Shown one piece after another: positions 620 through 12,416 of a DNA stretch of 64,000 nt. The position numbers and the translations under genes were made by a program. The number at the start of each line of letters is the position of its first letter. The first letter of the stretch is position 1. This stretch comes from Lepraria neglecta. Taxonomy: Eukaryota > Ascomycota > Lecanoromycetes > Lecanorales > Stereocaulaceae. The stretch is taken from assembly GCA_033220425.1 (NCBI GenBank), contig CM065647.1, forward strand, positions 4,960,001 through 5,024,000, given 5' to 3'. The notes under the pieces are model-generated. The model had not been told where the DNA came from. It did not search any database and saw only the letters and a list, made by a program, of their open reading frames with translations.

Positions 620-1415
620 TACCTCTACGTTTGAGGGAAAGACTGGCGAGCGTGATGGATAAACAGACGTTGAGCACAGCCGCCTGGGAGGAATCTTCGA
701 GCGACTTGTCTATGTTTGTATCTCATGAGGTTGGAGTTTGGGCGTCTTCTGAGCCGTGACATGCTCCAACTGTGTTCCTTAGGCGCCTTTGATTCATCTT
801 GGTGACCTTACTCTCAGCGAGCCAGGTTCACGCACTGTACTATTTGCACACACACACACAATAGAAGTGACCATAACGGGTTTCTTTATCCGCTTTAGTG
901 CTGATGCATTGTTCAGACGCAGCGAATGAGGAGACTTTTGACCTATGAAAATATTTCCTAGTCTTAGTTCTACCCTTCGCTTTGAGCTTGTACTTGATGC
1001 CCTAGTTGAAGTTCTGAAGCGGCGCCTACGGGTAAGAAATGCGTGCAGTGAGTGCGGGGAAGCCTCTTTTGCACATCATGCGGGGCGACTTCCTTTCCTA
1101 GCGAAGCCATCTTAAAATTCGGAAAAGGACGATGCCCATTGGCATCGTCGACTATCCCCTTCGTGTGCCGAGGCATCATTAAGTGCTTATAGGCACTACA
1201 ACAGCCACTTCGTCACTCATAGTGTTCTCATTATATTCGAGATAATGCAATGTGTACCGAAAGCGAAGGCACTTTTGACATAGCCAAATATGTACAATAG
1301 AAGGACACCAAACCAAGCAGCTGGCATAGAAGCCAACCCAAGAGAGAACAAGCTGTCAATAAACATCACTGCAGGACGTCGCCAAAACATTCATTTTCTC
1401 ATTTCCATATCCTCA
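620..1415. other. Intergenic, no gene seen
   Basis: Only short unsupported open frames occur here. A (CA)7 run lies at 847-860. The right end is the 3' flank of the peroxidase gene on the minus strand. Confidence 0.6.
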
Positions 1416-2818
1416 TTAGTAAGTCCCAGTTTTCGAGAGTTTCGTATACCCAGGATAGTTAGAAAACTGCGCCGTATCAATTTCACTCAATTTCGGGCAC
1501 CCTAGTCCAGCAGTAGCTTTATTGACAGCCGTCGTCAATGCAGCTATCGCGGCAGCAATATCCGAGTACAATCCAGACAATAAGTCTGGGGCCTCTTGCA
1601 GCGAAGCCTCGAAACCAAAACAGACGAGGTTGTTACCCTGCAATAGATTCTGAGCTGTGAATACGCCGCCCGTGAGAGCAGCAGGGTCGACGCCAGTAAA
1701 TGTATTCGTCTTGCCGGTGTTGCCGCCAACGCTGAGGAATTGCGGGTGGGCTAGCGCCATTGCAAGGGTATCGACGGAGAGGTAGGGAATGGTGTAGTAG
1801 TCGACTGGGTTGCGCTTGTACCAGTTATTTGGGAAGGATTCGTAGCCGGGCGTGTATTTGAAGTTCGGATAGTCGCCTGTGATGGAGTAGAATGATTTGA
1901 GGACGTCGCCGGTGAGTAGGCCCTCGGGGTATTCGGAGGATTTGTTCGCCATGAAACGGTAGATGAATGACCACGCGGCTGGGGAGGCGAGGACACCGCT
2001 GAAGGGTGCGTTGAAGAAGTAGGGGTTGTTGCTGATGGATTGTTGGAAGCGGGTTACGCGGTAGTTGGTTAGGACGTTGAGGTCGATACTGTCGCCGTTT
2101 TGTTGGCCTAGCTCGTACAGGGCTGTGAATTGGGAGAGTTGGACTAGGTAGTCGTTGCCGCTGGAGTTTGATCAGTACAGAGTCTAAACTTTTTGTGGTG
2201 CTGGAGACTTACTATTCGTACAAGTCGCCACGAGTTGGAGAGACGTCGCCCTCGTATTTGTTGTGGGATCCTGAAAGACCTTGTGGTGTGCCCAGCAAGC
2301 CGCCAAGGTTTAAGAGACCTGCCACAGGTCCTCCAATTGAGTAAGAGGTGAGGTCGCCGTCGAAGATTGCCCCGTAGACGGCAAGGAAGCTGGCGAGGTC
2401 GGGGCCCATGCCGAAGGCTGTTTGTGTCCCAGTGATGAAATCGTTGATGGTGCCTACACCACTGTGGGGTAGATATCCATGGTTGGCCATGGCGTTGAGA
2501 CCCGGGCCTAACGTACATGAGCTTAATCAATTGATAAAACCTGACGAGATTATACTCACAAGGTCCTCGCTGGTCCGTTGGCCCTGGTGCCACAAATTGA
2601 TTCGCTCCCACGTTGCTCACGTATTGCTCAGCGGCATTGAAAGGCGGTGTTACACCTGGAGCCTGACGCTTCGCAAGCTCGGCGGCCATGTGAGGGCAAG
2701 GAGAACCGGCGGGAGCCGGGTCCGCATTTCGTTTGTTCAAGAATGCTTCTGATAAAAGACTAGGGAAGGCAGAGATTTGTTGGGCTGACAGAGCTAGCAC
2801 AGCAAGTTTAGTCAACAT
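1416..2818 (-). CDS. Secreted heme-thiolate peroxidase (peroxygenase/chloroperoxidase family)
   Basis: Three exons on the minus strand: 2818-2560, 2507-2213 and 2160-1416, giving 432 residues. Joining the first two exons makes GPCPGLNAMANHGY. The Cys at about residue 87 is in the PCP motif that supplies the thiolate ligand to heme in this family. An EGD motif follows at about 172-174, inside KYEGDVSPTRGDLYEYGNDY, which spans the second splice. The end, LGCPKLSEIDTAQFSNYPGY, is typical of the family. The N-terminus MLTKLAVLALSAQQISA is a signal peptide, so the enzyme is probably exported. Family members use hydrogen peroxide to oxygenate or halogenate organic substrates; the substrate here is unknown. 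Start chosen at 2818 because it gives a clean signal peptide; an ATG 48 nt upstream is also in frame. No breaks were seen. Confidence 0.9.
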
Positions 2819-4514
2819 GTTTACAAGAGACGTGTGATTTTGGCCAGAGCAGAAAGACATGTACAAGAAAAGAAGGCTGAACCGTACAACGAGGGCATCA
2901 ACACCTGATATATTCCATAATTGAGAAAAAGCCTAGGCGAGACAAGAGATGGAGGATTGAGTCCCGTAGCCACCTACGTCTTACCGTCTTTTACAAGCGT
3001 GATTGGAACTAAACATCATATTGACATCACGAAAAAAGGATCACGGCTCGGCGAAGCTGAGGTTTCCTAGAATCTAACCAATCGATCGACCCGGATCAGC
3101 GGGAAGAGGGTCTTGACACTTTAGCCGCATATAAGCAAAAGAGCGTCTTACTGGAGCCACGTGTGTCATGCACACCGACAAAATTGCTCACACAGGATAT
3201 ATTGGGTGGGAAGAGAAAGGGTATAGGCGTGCGATAGGGGGCATAGCGTCTGTTTTAGCGCCGAACTAGACAGCGGCTGATCATCTACAAGTGCCGATGC
3301 AACCGTCGTTCGATTGACCATTAGCATACCTGTTGAGTGACGCCTTTCCCTTCTTTAAAGCACTTGTTCTCGAATTGGAAACACCTCCGCCGCCTAAAAG
3401 GTTCAAGTGACAGTTTGCGGGGAATTGGGGGTCTGCCAAATTGCGGGGTTGGCATCATGATACCGAGGTCCAATGATTCCGCTTCTCCTAAATGTGCTAT
3501 TTTTGGTCAAGTGGTTCTCAATCGAGCAGAAGACGCTCCTGCATGTGATCGTGATGGCTTGGGGGCTTGCCTCATACTACCGTGCACTGCCGGCAACGAT
3601 ATAGAAGTGCTAAAATGTGCTCTTGTAACGGCGGAATGTCCACACCCCTGTGGATGAAGAGGCATCGTTGTAGCACTTGTGGGCAGAAACCTAAATAACA
3701 GGACGGGCAGGAATTGCGGAAAGTTTGGCTACTCAGCGCCTGTGGAAATGAAGGAAAGGGCTTGTTGCAATAACACCAAGTTCCACATTAAAGAGAATTT
3801 TTCTGAGCTCGACCTCCAACGCTCTCAGTTGTGCAAGAACGAAATTTCACTAGTAACTACTCTCGTCGAACATCAGATTATCCCGCATGTTGGGGTAAGA
3901 CCGGTAGAACTACTCACCACTATGCACGGCTGTTGCTCCATCATCTGACGGTCTTTCGGTAATCTGCGGCAGTGGTGTCCAACCTCTTGGAAGAGAGACT
4001 CTGCTTTCGGATGCTGAGTAGTCTGAATGTCGAATGCAGAGAATTTTGGACATTCTACCACCAATCGGCTTCGTGAACTCCTCAGGACCCGTGAACAAGC
4101 CCATGAAGGAGGGGAATGAATGATCCATAGGTCAAGCTTTGTCTAAACTCTTTGAGGTCAATTGGGACAAACAGAAGTTGAAAGGAGCATAGCATCGTTC
4201 CCAAAGAGATAGATAGAAAAGTTGGCGCTCTCACTCACACGCGATGGTCTCAAAAAGGAAGCATCTAGAATTCCGATGAACGATATTTGGGTGTCGAGCT
4301 TCCTCACGCGTTGGTAGCCATGTCGGTAATTTTCGGCCGTAGATCTAGAATTTTTGTCCCTGCACAAAATTTATGCACGCTTGCATAAATCGTCCCAAAA
4401 AAATTGGGCTTCTTCTCATTTCCTTACATTGGCTGCAATGGCCACACACCAAGTCTACTTTTATCTGTCTCTGTCTCCTATCTGTCCTAATGATGAGAAT
4501 CCCCGTTTCCCTCA
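2819..4514. other. Intergenic, no gene recognised
   Basis: The first part is the 5' flank of the peroxidase gene. Overlapping short frames at 3873-4128 on the minus strand look protein-like in pieces (FPSFMGLFTGPEEF in one frame, AESLFQEVGHHCRRLPKDRQ in another) and may be a decayed gene, but I cannot assign a family. Confidence 0.45.
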
Positions 4515-6656: not shown

Positions 6657-8917
6657 TCAGCCACTTCCCTTACCAAGTGCGCCTGCCTTTGCGTTGATGC
6701 CTCCAATCATCTCTACCCGTACGTAATTGCTTGGAAAAAGCCCACGCTCCCCTCGTGGGTTTTGGCCATACCACCAACCCTCACTCGGTACTTCGAGAAC
6801 ATTGATATCGTCGTTCTTCTGGAGTTGAAGCTCATTGTCTGCCCCTGGCTCGTAGTCGTACTGTGCCTTTGCAGTTCTAACGTTCACAGACGCTTGGTGC
6901 ACATCATTGATCAACTCGACAAGATTGCTTCGGAAAATGCCTCGCTCTCCGCGCGGGTTCTTCCCCCTCCACCAGTTTTCGTCGACCATTTCAATCTCGG
7001 TGATGAGATCATGTTTCATCAATCGTAGCCCATACATCTCAAGTGGCTCCTGAGAACGCAGTGCCACCGCAGACCGACGTTTTTCGGAAGGTGTTTGATC
7101 CTCATCCTCATCAATCAATTCCACGTAGTTACTGGGAAACATCCCTAAGACTCCACGGAGTTTTCCAACCCACCAACCCTCGTCAAGCATATCTATCTCT
7201 GTAATAGTGTCGCCTTCCACCATCAGTAGTTCATTAGACTCCACTGGCTCATAGCCAAACAATACCCTTGCCCGCTTTGCCTTTGTAGATGCTTTCAAGT
7301 CTCTGGAAACCTCTGATTGTGCGAATGCAAAAGATGAAAACATAGGCAGTATTGTACCTATATATACCCCAAGTCAGGTACACGTCATATGCTAGCCAAC
7401 ATGACTTTTGGTAAGGCTGATCTTACCTGGCGTGGAATGTTTTAATGCAGGAATTCTAGGATCCACCACTGCTGGGTCGTTGCTTGGGCCATGATCAATC
7501 TTTCTCACCATTCGATCTAAGTTCACCTTGTGTCAGATACAGATCTGATAGCGCACGTCGATGTCAGAGAACCTACCTGACGTTGAATGTCCCAACATTG
7601 GAGCTTTTGGACCTATTCTTGTCGAGTCATCCGCTATATTGAATCTCGTGAAGGCGTCACTAAGCGCTGTCTGCATTGGCTGTGTTCTCTTCAAGTTTTG
7701 TAAGGACAAGCGATCTTGAATGTCGGCACTAGGTCGACTTGGTCCAAAGTTTGCATCTAACGATCCATTGGCATCCAGAAGCCACTCGCTTGATAGAGCC
7801 TCTCTGGCTGTCACGCGTTGCGCAGGATCTTGCACGAGCAATTTCCGAATGAATAGGAGGGCCCTACTCAGCGATTGAGCTTCAAGCAGACCTTCGGGAA
7901 ATGGCTTCTTTTTGGAGAACGTGGTCAGAAATGGCGGTTCCTGGACCAGTACATGGTATACAACACATCCTAAGGACCAGATATCGACAGCTTGTGTGTA
8001 GTCGCAGTCTAGCAAATCGTCATCTTCGACTTCTGGTGCAAGATAGCGAGCAGTGCCAAGTCGTGTTCTCAAGGCCGTGTGGTCACTATCGATACGCTTG
8101 CTAATACCAAAGTCGGCAAGTTTCACCCACCAGTGTGGCGATTTGCGCATCACGAATATATTCTGGGATGGTTCAAAAGACAACGTAAGCAGCCGTATGT
8201 CTCATGAATCACCAAGATGCGGTAGCTCACAACAAAGTGAAGGCGAAGAGAACGAACCTGGGGTTTAACATCTCTATGAGTGAATCCTTCATCATGTATG
8301 ATTGTAAGCGCCTCAAGAAGATCCCTGGTTATTTGCTTCGCGCCAGTCTCGCTAATTTCGCCTGTGGGGATATGCTTGCCGAGATCCCCCAAGGGACAGT
8401 ACTCCATAGCCAAATAAAGTGTCTCGTCCGATTCGAACCATCCGAGAAACTCAACTATGACCTCTTCTTGCCGTATCTGCTGAGTATCAGCAAGCTCTCA
8501 ATTAACAAGAACAATGAATGAAGTGGAAGTCTCGCGTCGCGAGGAATACCAAAGTCCATTTTTGAGAGAACCGGTAGCCGGAAATGTGAGAAGAAGATTG
8601 TGACTACGGCTACTTACACGAGGAGTGCTAAACTTGGCTAGTGCATCCAATTCTCTCTCGTAATCAATCCCCAAGTCTTCCATACGATATTTTGAGAGCT
8701 GCTTAACGGCCCGCTCAGCGCCCTTCTCTCCCTTTTGTAGCCACACTTCCCCGAAAGCCCCGTGACCGATGCGCTTGATATTATCCCACCGTTGCTCAAC
8801 TTTGACCCTCTGAACACTTTGGGATCGATCTTTGACGTACGACGTATGTGTAACGTGGCTTTCCGAGCACTCGGCCTGAAGCTTGTAAAAGTCCAGAAGG
8901 TCCGAGTAAGGAGGCAT
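6657..8917 (-). CDS. Protein kinase fused to three SH3 domains
   Basis: Five exons on the minus strand, 8917-8618, 8476-8258, 8162-7577, 7516-7427 and 7357-6657, join in phase to 631 residues. The kinase domain starts near residue 45: glycine loop IGHGAFGEV, AVKQL lysine, HRDVKPQN catalytic loop (split by an intron), ADFGISK, then LGTARYLAPEV and VDIWSLGC. All catalytic residues are present, so it should be an active Ser/Thr kinase. After a linker come three SH3 domains at about 429-480, 494-549 and 561-614, each with a GWW or NWW core and an SNY- or SNL-type end (MFPSNYVELI, IFRSNLVELI, LFPSNYVRVE). The middle domain lacks the normal ALYDY start. SH3 domains bind proline-rich partners, so a scaffolded signalling kinase is inferred. 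The donor after HRDVKPQ is weak (GTTCGT). Start at 8917 (MPPYSDLL) chosen over an in-frame ATG at 8950. Two genes are conceivable, but the 90-nt exon between the domains keeps phase on both sides. Confidence 0.82.
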
Positions 8918-9381
8918 TGTCAAAGCTAGACATGAGATGATAAACAGCAATTCACCAAAAGGTGATCGGGGAAACTTGAGACTTCTTTCAACCAGTCAAT
9001 GTAGAATAGCTTTTGCTGTGGCACGTTGATTTTCCGCAAAGTAAGTCGCTAGCCTGTATTGCAACGCCTGTGAAATTACTGGATCGACTGACTAAGCCAT
9101 TGGTGCAATTCGCGGATTCCCTAGCTTTCGTATTTAACGACCCTTCTCCGGCTGAACACATTGATCTGATAGGCTCCGCTGTACTCATTAGGCTTAAGTT
9201 CGACGTTTTGGTTGGAGAGATGAAGTGTGGACAGTACCAAGATGCCAAGCTGAACGCCAAGCCTCTAGTATTATTTAGCGCATGGTCAGGATTGGCGAGC
9301 CTAGACTTTGACCGCTTGAAGGCTTTTCTTGCTCGGTAAACGTCAAAGCACTCCCATTAAAGCCGAAGCCGTCTTGCTGCG
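8918..9381. other. Divergent intergenic region
   Basis: Lies between the kinase-SH3 gene (minus) and the HeLo/kinase-like relic (plus). A 108-codon open frame at 9013-9339 on the plus strand resembles no family I recognise and could be an upstream piece of the relic. Confidence 0.4.
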
Positions 9382-11036
9382 TTGTCCAATTCCACTCAAA
9401 CTTCTTCTAAGTTTACAAAACAGCAACCATGGTGTCGTTCTTTCCGCGGAGCACCTTACATGGTCATTTTAAACTTAAGGCCAGCATCTTTGCGCTCAGC
9501 CCTAGAACTCGACTTCGGCATTGCTCATATCAGCGAATTAGTCTTGCGTGTTGAGGGCTGCTGGCTAAAGATCGAAATTCACGTTGAATTTCTGAATCAA
9601 ATATGGGACTCGCTTGGGGAGCGTTTGCAAACCATTCAGAATCGGATGCTGGATGTGCTACAATCGAAATTGATTCAAGCAATACAGGATCTCGATCGGG
9701 TCACTGTTCTTGAAGCGTACGGCTCCCATATGGAAGCCAATGATAAAATCAAAACGAAAAGGCTCAAGTTCGTCATTGCACTTGGAGACAATCTGATCAA
9801 GAATGTGGAACAGCTAGAGAGTTGGCATGCTCGATTTGATCCGTCTTGGTGGCTTCTCTTGCGTCTCAAAAGCCATTCGATTGATAAAGAACTTACCTCT
9901 GAGATCACGAGTCGGGCTGGATCTTTGACCACGCTCAAGACTCTGAGGAACGAGTTAGCAGCGCAAGAAACCAAAAGAGACTCCGCACCATTCGAGTTTC
10001 TCGAAGAAAACGCTTTGGTCGACGATCACGAGATTATCCCATACACAAAGTCGACATTAGCTTGTCTCGAAGGCTCATGACGTTATGTTATTGTGGACAC
10101 TGTGGTTTGTAATCCCCACGTCGATCCAGCTGTTGTGATGAAAGATGTCGAAAACCTGGCAAAGATCATGGCAAAGATAGATAGTTCTCGCTTTGGACCC
10201 CATCCTGTCACGGGGCCATCAAGCAATAGAAACAACAGGGGAGCCCTTCTGAGTATGAACTGCTCTTCAACGCACCGCCAGATGCGACGGCCACTCGAAG
10301 CCTTAGGGAGATCCTCATTGGTGAACCTTACGGAACTCCTCTCAATGAGCGTATGGACATGGCAATAGGCTTAGCCTGGGCAGTGCTCTTTCTGCATGCG
10401 TTCAACTTCGTGCACAAAATCCTTCGACCAGAGAATGTCATTATCTTTCGCAGTGGCAAAGCTAACTCGGTAAACCATATCTAGTGGGATTCGAGAAGTT
10501 CCGACTAGATACGACGGGAACACACCATGTTGGGGATGATCTCTGGGAGAAGAACCTCTATCGGCATCCGCAGCGCCAGGGTATCAGACCTCAAGAGGAT
10601 TTCGTAATGCAGCATGACGTATATTCGTTGGGTGTCGTTCTTCTGGAGCTGGGCGTGAGCATGTCATTTTTGCAATGATCAAATGGTCCCTGTGAAAACT
10701 CCATACCAAACCCCGAGCTCGACTTCTCTGACCTGGGCCCTCAAAAGAAGACACAACATGGCAAAGCGAACGCAATCAAAGAGAAACTCGTCACTTTAGC
10801 GGTAACGAAGCTCCCCAACACCTTCGGACGCAAGTATACTGAAGTTGTACTATCTTGCTTGACGTGCTTGGACAAAGGTAATGATAATTTCGGCGATTCG
10901 AAGGAGTTCGAAGACGACGATGGCATCCTCGTCGGCGTGCGATACATCGAGAAGGTTTGTAAAAGACGTTGATGGATCCGAGGCCTGAAGCTAACAGTGC
11001 TAGATTCTTACACTACTTGACGACATCTCCGTGTGA
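9382..11036 (+). pseudogene. Broken HeLo-type/kinase-like protein gene
   Basis: The order of segments matches a fungal family with an N-terminal HeLo-like helical region and a C-terminal kinase-like domain. LRVEGCWLKIEIHVEFLNQI and WHARFDPSWWLLLRLKSHSI belong to the helical part. IVDTVVCNPHVDP follows, then SLREILIGEPYGTPL. The kinase-like part has HKILRPENVIIF in place of a catalytic HRD loop, GFEKFRLD in place of DFG, WEKNLYRHPQRQG and MQHDVYSLGVVLLELG. The tail KYTEVVLSCLTCLDKGND ends, after an intron, in ILTLLDDISV and TGA 11034-11036. The catalytic residues are absent in this class, so relatives are pseudokinases; HeLo domains in other fungal proteins drive membrane damage and cell death. 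Damage: TGA 10078-10080, a frame change near 10190 with a TAG soon after, and a frame change near 10475. The true start is uncertain. Confidence 0.72.
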
Positions 11037-11319
11037 TCGGAAGACGGCACCTCGAGCGTTCTCTGATGCCCAAGTTGGAGCTGCTAGGCAGACATTGCCC
11101 ACTCCTCACCATATTCTCCTATAGTTCAAGTAATATTTCCATTTCCTGAGCTTTTTTCTCTTCTGCACCGTTAGTAAAAATACTGTAACGCCATCATGTG
11201 CTAAAATTTATGACCTGAGCAAGATTGAGAGAGATGTTTAAATTCACGCATTTGTCGATTTTGAGTCGTTGTCTAACAAATCTACCATCCGAGCCACCTT
11301 TTACCTCCGGGAATAATCC

Positions 11320-12416
11320 ATGTTTAGGGCTGTAACAGCTTATGGTGTTTGCCATGCTCTCTTCCCCGGTCTGAAGCCTTGGACTTATGAGAATATAACG
11401 ATTCACAACTTCGAAGACATAATCATGAATCCTGATGGAGCGTATTCGATGCCTCAAGGCTCGTCTTTATATAAGGATCACTATCACTTCCCAAAGCTGG
11501 ACTGTAAACTGGACGAACCGCAGCAGAGCCGAAAATATCCATATACCATTGTCGATACCGTACCCAAATTGGTGGCGCCACTGGACACAGATTTGAAGAT
11601 TCTTTTAGAAGGATGCTCTCCCAGATCGTATCATGCAGCTCTTACATCTCCTGAGTCTCTCTCTGGTGTCTCAACGCAAACGTCGCCTTATTCAACACAC
11701 GAAGTAGCAGCACCAGATTCCATATGTGACATTCCTTCAACGACACCGATCCTCTACGTCGATTCCGAAGGCATCTCTCTTTCCTGTTGGGGCGAACTCT
11801 CCGTCCTGGATTTCTACATATCAACAGACTCCTTCCAACATACATATCTCATCGATATCCACGTACTCGGACACGTTGCATTCTATACGCCATCAACTGA
11901 CAATCTGCACAATCTGAAAACATTCCTCCAGTCTCCCGATATACCGAAAGTATTCTTCGACGTGCGAAGCAACTCTGCAGCCCTTTTCTGGCAATTCGGA
12001 GTCAGACTAGAAGGAATACTCGACCTGCAGCTTATGGAGTTTGCTACCCGGACTTGAGGGAACAAAAAGCAGCTGTATGGCTGCTTTCGCTGCATCGAGG
12101 AAGATCTCGATATATCCTTGGAGGAATATTAGGGCGTGTGGGGGATAGGGGCAAGGGTAATAGACCGTTCGGTTATCCGAGGAACTGCAGGGTCTTCAAT
12201 GAGCGGCCGTTTCGTAAGGACGTTATTGATTTCTACGTCATGGACATGGTCTACCTACCGAGACTCTTTGAGTGGTACAATGAGAATCTTAGGAACAAGG
12301 TCGCTCTAGCAGCGACTGATGGCTCGGCGGGTAAAGTAGCCGCGGAGTCGCAGAGAAGGGCTGCAAGGATGCAGGATGAGACATTTGTTCTTGGTATTGA
12401 CGCTGCGCCTTGGTAG
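11320..12416 (+). pseudogene. Broken 3'-5' exonuclease (DnaQ-like) domain gene
   Basis: ILYVDSEGISLSCWGELSVL is the first exonuclease motif (D-x-E) of RNase D/EXD-like proteins. HTYLIDIHVLG and IPKVFFDVRSNSAALFWQFG lead to VRLEGILDLQLMEFATRT, the second and third motif regions. Such enzymes trim RNA or DNA from the 3' end. The homologous frame then meets TGA 12055-12057, continues as GCFRCIEEDLDISLEEY, meets TAG 12130-12132, and finally resumes in another frame as RVFNERPFRKDVIDFYVMD to the end at 12416. Two stops and one frame change in the C-terminal third make a pseudogene likely. The first 245 codons are open and could still give a truncated product. The start at 11320 is the first ATG of the frame and is not firm. 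Confidence 0.7.

Follow-up and report, generated by a model that had tools for sequence, protein, structure and literature searches.

The window, by which we mean the whole 64,000-nucleotide stretch of Lepraria neglecta DNA that was analysed, contains a gene on the minus strand, spanning 8917-6657, whose five exons form one reading frame of 631 or 632 codons with no stop at the joins. Exon 1 (8618..8917, minus strand, as are the other features of this gene) begins with an ATG at 8917 that has an A at −3, carries an N-terminal motif common to the paralogs described below, the glycine loop and the catalytic Lys, and has GTAAGTAG as its donor. Exon 2 (8258..8476) covers the central part of the kinase domain as far as HRDVKPQ. 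Its acceptor lies at 8476 or at 8479, the latter adding one codon and giving 632 rather than 631 residues. Exon 3 (7577..8162) continues from NIF through DFG, APE and the C-lobe into the start of a linker, with a PKAP motif at its end. The linker proceeds through exon 4 (7427..7516), a 90-nt exon with phase 1 on both sides and a PRIP motif, and ends in exon 5 (6657..7357), which also encodes three SH3 domains and the stop codon. The exon phases are 0, 0, 0, 1 and 1, and all four introns (141, 95, 60 and 69 bases) are of the GT...AG type. The SH3 half had been tied to position 7343; exon 5 in fact starts at 7357, and 7343 is an internal ATG with a C at −3.

Twenty in-phase models, of 618 to 651 aa, could be assembled, differing in where exons 2 and 3 begin or end. 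The model chosen joins HRDVKPQ to NIF because the paralogs show the same join. Ten long open frames of the window, which are not proven genes, served to train a codon-usage score. It was positive for the claimed frame and ranked it best of the three same-strand frames in every one of the five exons; one opposite-strand frame tied with it in exon 2 (0.166 versus 0.162). All three same-strand frames scored negative in each of the four introns. Splicing, Pfam matches and codon usage thus bear out the original prediction of a complete kinase followed by three SH3 domains, and the gene is real and probably functional.

Pfam placed Pkinase at residues 46-302 of the protein, covering profile positions 3-263 of 263 (E 3.6e-51). 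The motifs GHGAFGEV, AVK, HRDVKPQN, DFG, APE and DIWSLGC could be read directly and in order, and with glycine loop, Lys, HRD, DFG and APE all in place the kinase is predicted to be catalytically competent. When the catalytic domain was ranked against PDB sequences, RAD53 came first, and the domain ranked with Rad53, Chk2 and calmodulin-type kinases. The likeness to Rad53/Chk2 (PRD-4) stops at the catalytic domain: Pfam found no FHA domain, the mark of that group, in the window protein, and the genome's own FHA-kinase (L046; FHA E 1.3e-9) falls outside the family in the tree described below. Cofilin_ADF, the N-terminal domain expected of an Abp1, likewise gave no Pfam match in the protein.

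SH3_1 (PF00018) matched three stretches of the protein (E 2.3e-29). Canonical PxxP binding by SH3 domains relies on the tyrosines of ALYDY, a Trp, and the P and Y of PSNY. These groove residues are kept in the outer domains, SH3-1 (7104..7286; LFGY, WW, FPSNY) and SH3-3 (6702..6887; AQYDY, WW, FPSNY), except for a Tyr-to-Phe change in SH3-1. The middle domain, SH3-2 (6897..7079), had been noted to lack the ALYDY start. It does, with both tyrosines gone (ALRSQ), and it has also lost the P and Y of FPSNY (FRSNL), keeping the Trp; because of these losses it is probably not a PxxP binder. A model of SH3-2 built with its two siblings as the alignment nevertheless kept the SH3 fold (pLDDT 92.5) and, among solved folds, was closest to the cortactin SH3, while the SH3 of yeast Abp1 ranked fifth and eighth. 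Modelling the whole array from a single sequence gave no usable structure (pLDDT 34.5). All three therefore look like SH3 domains, domains 1 and 3 as judged from sequence and the middle one from its model as well. The idea that the array recruits proline-rich partners holds up for the outer two domains, where the groove residues are present, and loses its footing for the middle one.

With the kinase and linker as query, we then searched the genome to which the window belongs (11 contigs, 42.0 Mb). At E<=1e-5 there were at least 78 matches, with 104 of 125 candidates scored. Eleven stretches were examined, of which nine held relatives (L038-L045 and L047), one the FHA-kinase L046 and one an unrelated kinase (L048); more relatives are possible among the remaining matches. 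In query-anchored alignments, which for L042, L043 and L044 take in some translated intron, the nine relatives were 39 to 48% identical to the window kinase over 197 to 300 columns. The corresponding range for five other kinases was 30 to 38%, the 38% being that of L046 over 189 columns. FastTree split the family from the five other kinases with a support of 0.98 and left L046 outside it; support for placing L044 together with the window gene was weak (0.78). The motif ahead of the glycine loop could be compared in seven of the nine relatives and was 27 to 43% identical. By eye, the position of intron 1 is shared with L041, L042, L044 and L045, and that of intron 2 with L044 and L045. On the N-terminal motif, the core and the separation in the tree, we assign the window kinase to this paralogous family of the genome.

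The family is dispersed, comprising the window gene and, on five other contigs (C1, C4, C5, C6 and C7), at least nine further loci. Within the window, family matches at E<=1e-5 number four, and each is an exon of the window gene itself. Both results speak against the earlier proposal that the gene is the surviving member of a local signalling cluster.

What follows the kinase varies among the nine relatives: Pfam identified ankyrin repeats at three loci, a TPR domain at one, a YTH domain at one and no further domain at four. The ankyrin repeats lie in the kinase's own open frame in L042 and in other frames in L044 and L047. TPR is downstream of the L038 kinase. YTH, of the m6A reader type, is downstream of the L045 kinase on the same strand (G000:C6:1231900-1238900), its first half at locus positions 2240-2527 (E 8.4e-15) and its second at 2676-3089 (E 2.4e-5). 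Under strict splice rules neither L038 with TPR nor L045 with YTH gave a single-gene model, and we therefore call these domains adjacent rather than proven fusions. No additional Pfam domain was found in the frames tested at L039, L040, L041 and L043. In its C-terminal part, the 809-aa frame of L039 (G000:C4:1295500-1302500, frame 903-3329) contains roughly three copies of a repeat rich in charged residues, recognized by eye, and this region matches no Pfam domain. In-frame stops occur within the aligned kinase pieces of L044 and L047, which may be decayed copies; the stops of L042, L043 and L045 are in or near intron-like stretches.

To see how often kinase and SH3 domains are paired, we compared the 31 SH3_1 matches of the genome (37 of 37 candidates scored) with 213 distinct kinase places, drawn from the 78 matches of the kinase-linker search and from a Pkinase scan that scored 124 of 293 candidates and gave at least 138 pieces. 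A kinase lay within 8 kb of an SH3 match at the window gene, which accounts for three of the SH3 matches, and at C3:2654493, and nowhere else among those scored. At C3:2654493 a PBD (PAK-type) accompanies the kinase and a GAT domain the SH3, and we therefore regard them as two genes. The SH3 match at C5:2790998 was also considered; the kinase in its neighborhood is 8.5 kb off and on the opposite strand, and the two are not fused. The window gene is thus the sole kinase-SH3 fusion among the scored SH3 and kinase matches of the genome, the kinase counts being lower bounds. As the kinase candidates scored were 124 of 293, another SH3 fusion may exist whose kinase scores poorly. The literature searched, some of it in main texts only, held no fungal kinase-SH3 protein, a result that applies to those texts and not to print or databases at large. 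The main text of Kosti et al. (2010), whose subject is fungal kinases with their associated domains, uses “SH3” 0 times, and since “ankyrin,” “TPR” and “WD40” also occur 0 times there, it counts neither for nor against.

Of the groups described so far, the Ffk kinases of Aspergillus nidulans (FfkA-K) come nearest, and we liken the window kinase to them by the description in De Souza et al. (2013; PMC3591445). The text of that paper presents them as unclassified, specific to filamentous fungi and variable across species, and reports that no phenotype was found for Ffk mutants. Ankyrin repeats are attached to FfkA, FfkB and FfkC (PMC3591445) and also to some of the window gene's relatives, whereas a member bearing SH3 is absent from the main text of the paper, in which “SH3” occurs 0 times. 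Likenesses can also be drawn to animal kinases, which also combine kinase and SH3 in one protein and in which regulation through SH3 and linker is a possibility shared with the window protein. In Src, Tec, Abl and MLK, the SH3 domain is N-terminal to the kinase and mostly single. The window array differs in being C-terminal and in three copies, and its catalytic domain ranks with CAMK/Chk2.

The three window SH3 domains are 42 to 48% identical to one another. They were compared with the 28 SH3 matches of the genome outside the window (27 partly overlapping segments), of which 17, 9 and 15 aligned with SH3-1, SH3-2 and SH3-3, respectively. One domain, at C8:1470950-1471087, was the best match for all three: 51.7% and 63.9 bits for SH3-1 (runner-up, 55.1 bits), 46.6% and 58.9 bits for SH3-2 (runner-up, 39.7 bits), and 52.7% and 68.2 bits for SH3-3 (runner-up, 48.5 bits). 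The gene that contains it has two SH3 stretches and a Cofilin_ADF domain (E 7.1e-12) and hence is Abp1-like. Each window domain scored 50 to 52 bits with its siblings, below its score with the Abp1-like domain. For SH3-2, percent identity ran slightly the other way (48 and 47% with the siblings versus 46.6%), opposite to the bit scores. A slowly evolving Abp1 SH3 may, however, be the best match without being the source of the array.

In yeast, the SH3 domain of Abp1 brings the kinases Ark1 and Prk1 to endocytic patches (PMC10011730). The window protein resembles Abp1 in its SH3 domains and differs from this arrangement in having kinase and SH3 in one chain and no ADF domain. The reading we favor, with a probability of roughly 45%, is that an Ffk-type fungal kinase has been re-targeted to Abp1-type proline-rich ligands by a fused SH3 array. 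The gene would encode a Ser/Thr kinase that is active and belongs to a CAMK/Chk2-like family of fungi, with Ffk as the nearest described group. The C-terminal partner in this family would vary by gene, here being an array derived from Abp1-type SH3. SH3-1 and SH3-3 would bind Abp1-type proline-rich ligands and so take the kinase to cortical actin or endocytic sites, where it would phosphorylate proteins at the sites of Abp1 ligands. SH3-2, its groove lost, could serve as a spacer or offer a noncanonical surface. If this is right, fungi give a kingdom-specific kinase module new targets by exchanging its C-terminal interaction domain, and one member has acquired the specificity of the Abp1 SH3, in yeast a recruiter of separate kinases. 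Having the recruiter fused to the kinase would amount to a natural experiment in how signalling is rewired, and an orphan group of fungal kinases would gain a concrete, testable site of action.

The strongest competitor, which we consider quite possible though somewhat less probable, is that the array is a generic adaptor array unrelated to Abp1 and the kinase a self-scaffolded signalling unit of another pathway. PDB sequence searches fit such an array, with SH3 domains of p47phox, GRB2, CD2AP and sorbin at or near the top: p47phox came first for SH3-1, with GRB2 also among the leaders, sorbin and cortactin led for SH3-2, and GRB2 was first for SH3-3, followed by yeast Abp1. Abp1 was among the matches of the window domains and was top for none of the three. 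Within the genome, however, the Abp1-like SH3 beats the runner-up by about 9, 19 and 20 bits, and each domain scores higher with it than with its two siblings.

An autoinhibited switch, of the kind exemplified by Src, MLK3 and p47phox, is a less likely but compatible addition to the Abp1-targeted kinase. PxxP motifs of the linker would bind SH3-1 or SH3-3 in cis and keep it occupied until a competing outside ligand released it and activated the kinase. RIGPKAP (class I-like) and PRIPALK are suitably placed between kinase and array, at the alike ends of exons 3 and 4. There are three PxxP motifs in the linker against 0.86 expected, a count reached by 4.4% of shuffles; four linker patterns were tried and the other three were not significant, which makes the excess marginal. 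The lack of a class II pattern, of a significant class I excess and of a whole-array model (pLDDT 34.5) also counts against such a switch. The ends of exons 3 and 4 read PMLGHSTSG and PALKHSTPG; their local alignment score is 33, and none of 500 shuffles exceeded 29. The corresponding stretches, 7577-7600 and 7427-7450, are alike in both DNA and peptide, donors included. A small internal duplication possibly created exon 4; this is suggested and not proven, because the splice consensus adds to the alignment score.

That the locus instead holds two neighbors, a kinase that stops at about 7533 inside a retained intron 3 and an SH3 adaptor translated from ATG 7343, seems to us improbable. In favor of two genes, the frame stays open through intron 3 until the stop at 7533, the ATG at 7343 is in frame, and adjacent separate kinase and SH3 genes do exist (PBD-kinase and SH3-GAT at C3:2654493-2657400). 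Against them, just some 190 bases would be left between the genes, the −3 base is C at ATG 7343 but A at ATG 8917, exon 4 combines a consensus donor and phase 1 at either end with a coding score that is small but positive (0.056), and the paralog L042 combines kinase and ankyrin repeats within one open frame. More speculative, and in our estimation a long shot, is an extension of the Abp1-targeted kinase in which the family forms a repertoire of kinase plus bait. A constant CHK2-like kinase would be joined to copied host modules (Abp1-type SH3, ankyrin, TPR and perhaps YTH), and here seizure of the bait, a copy of the Abp1 SH3 standing in for the actin patch adaptor, would trip the kinase. The idea was inspired by the integrated decoys proposed for fungal NLRs in PMC12258605, where CHK2-like kinase domains are found at the C terminus of Sordariales NLRs. 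A scan of viral contigs with the SH3 array gave four pattern matches and no relative.

The gene had also been described as lying next to two other kinase-like relics. Eight frames were tested between 4515 and 12413, and one relic found weak support and the other none. The supported one is a kinase-like piece at 10230-10481 (PK_Tyr_Ser-Thr, E 0.0017, below the Pfam cut-off). It follows downstream of a 239-aa frame in which no Pfam domain is credible, and it is probably a decayed gene. The frame at 9361-10077 had a single, meaningless Pfam match (E 0.043, below the cut-off), and the other two frames tested within 9361-10969 had none. By eye alone, a HeLo-type N terminus is suspected in this neighbor (9361-10969). 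Downstream of the kinase relic, an open frame at 11317-12054 encodes a 3'-5' exonuclease domain (DNA_pol_A_exo1, E 2.8e-7).
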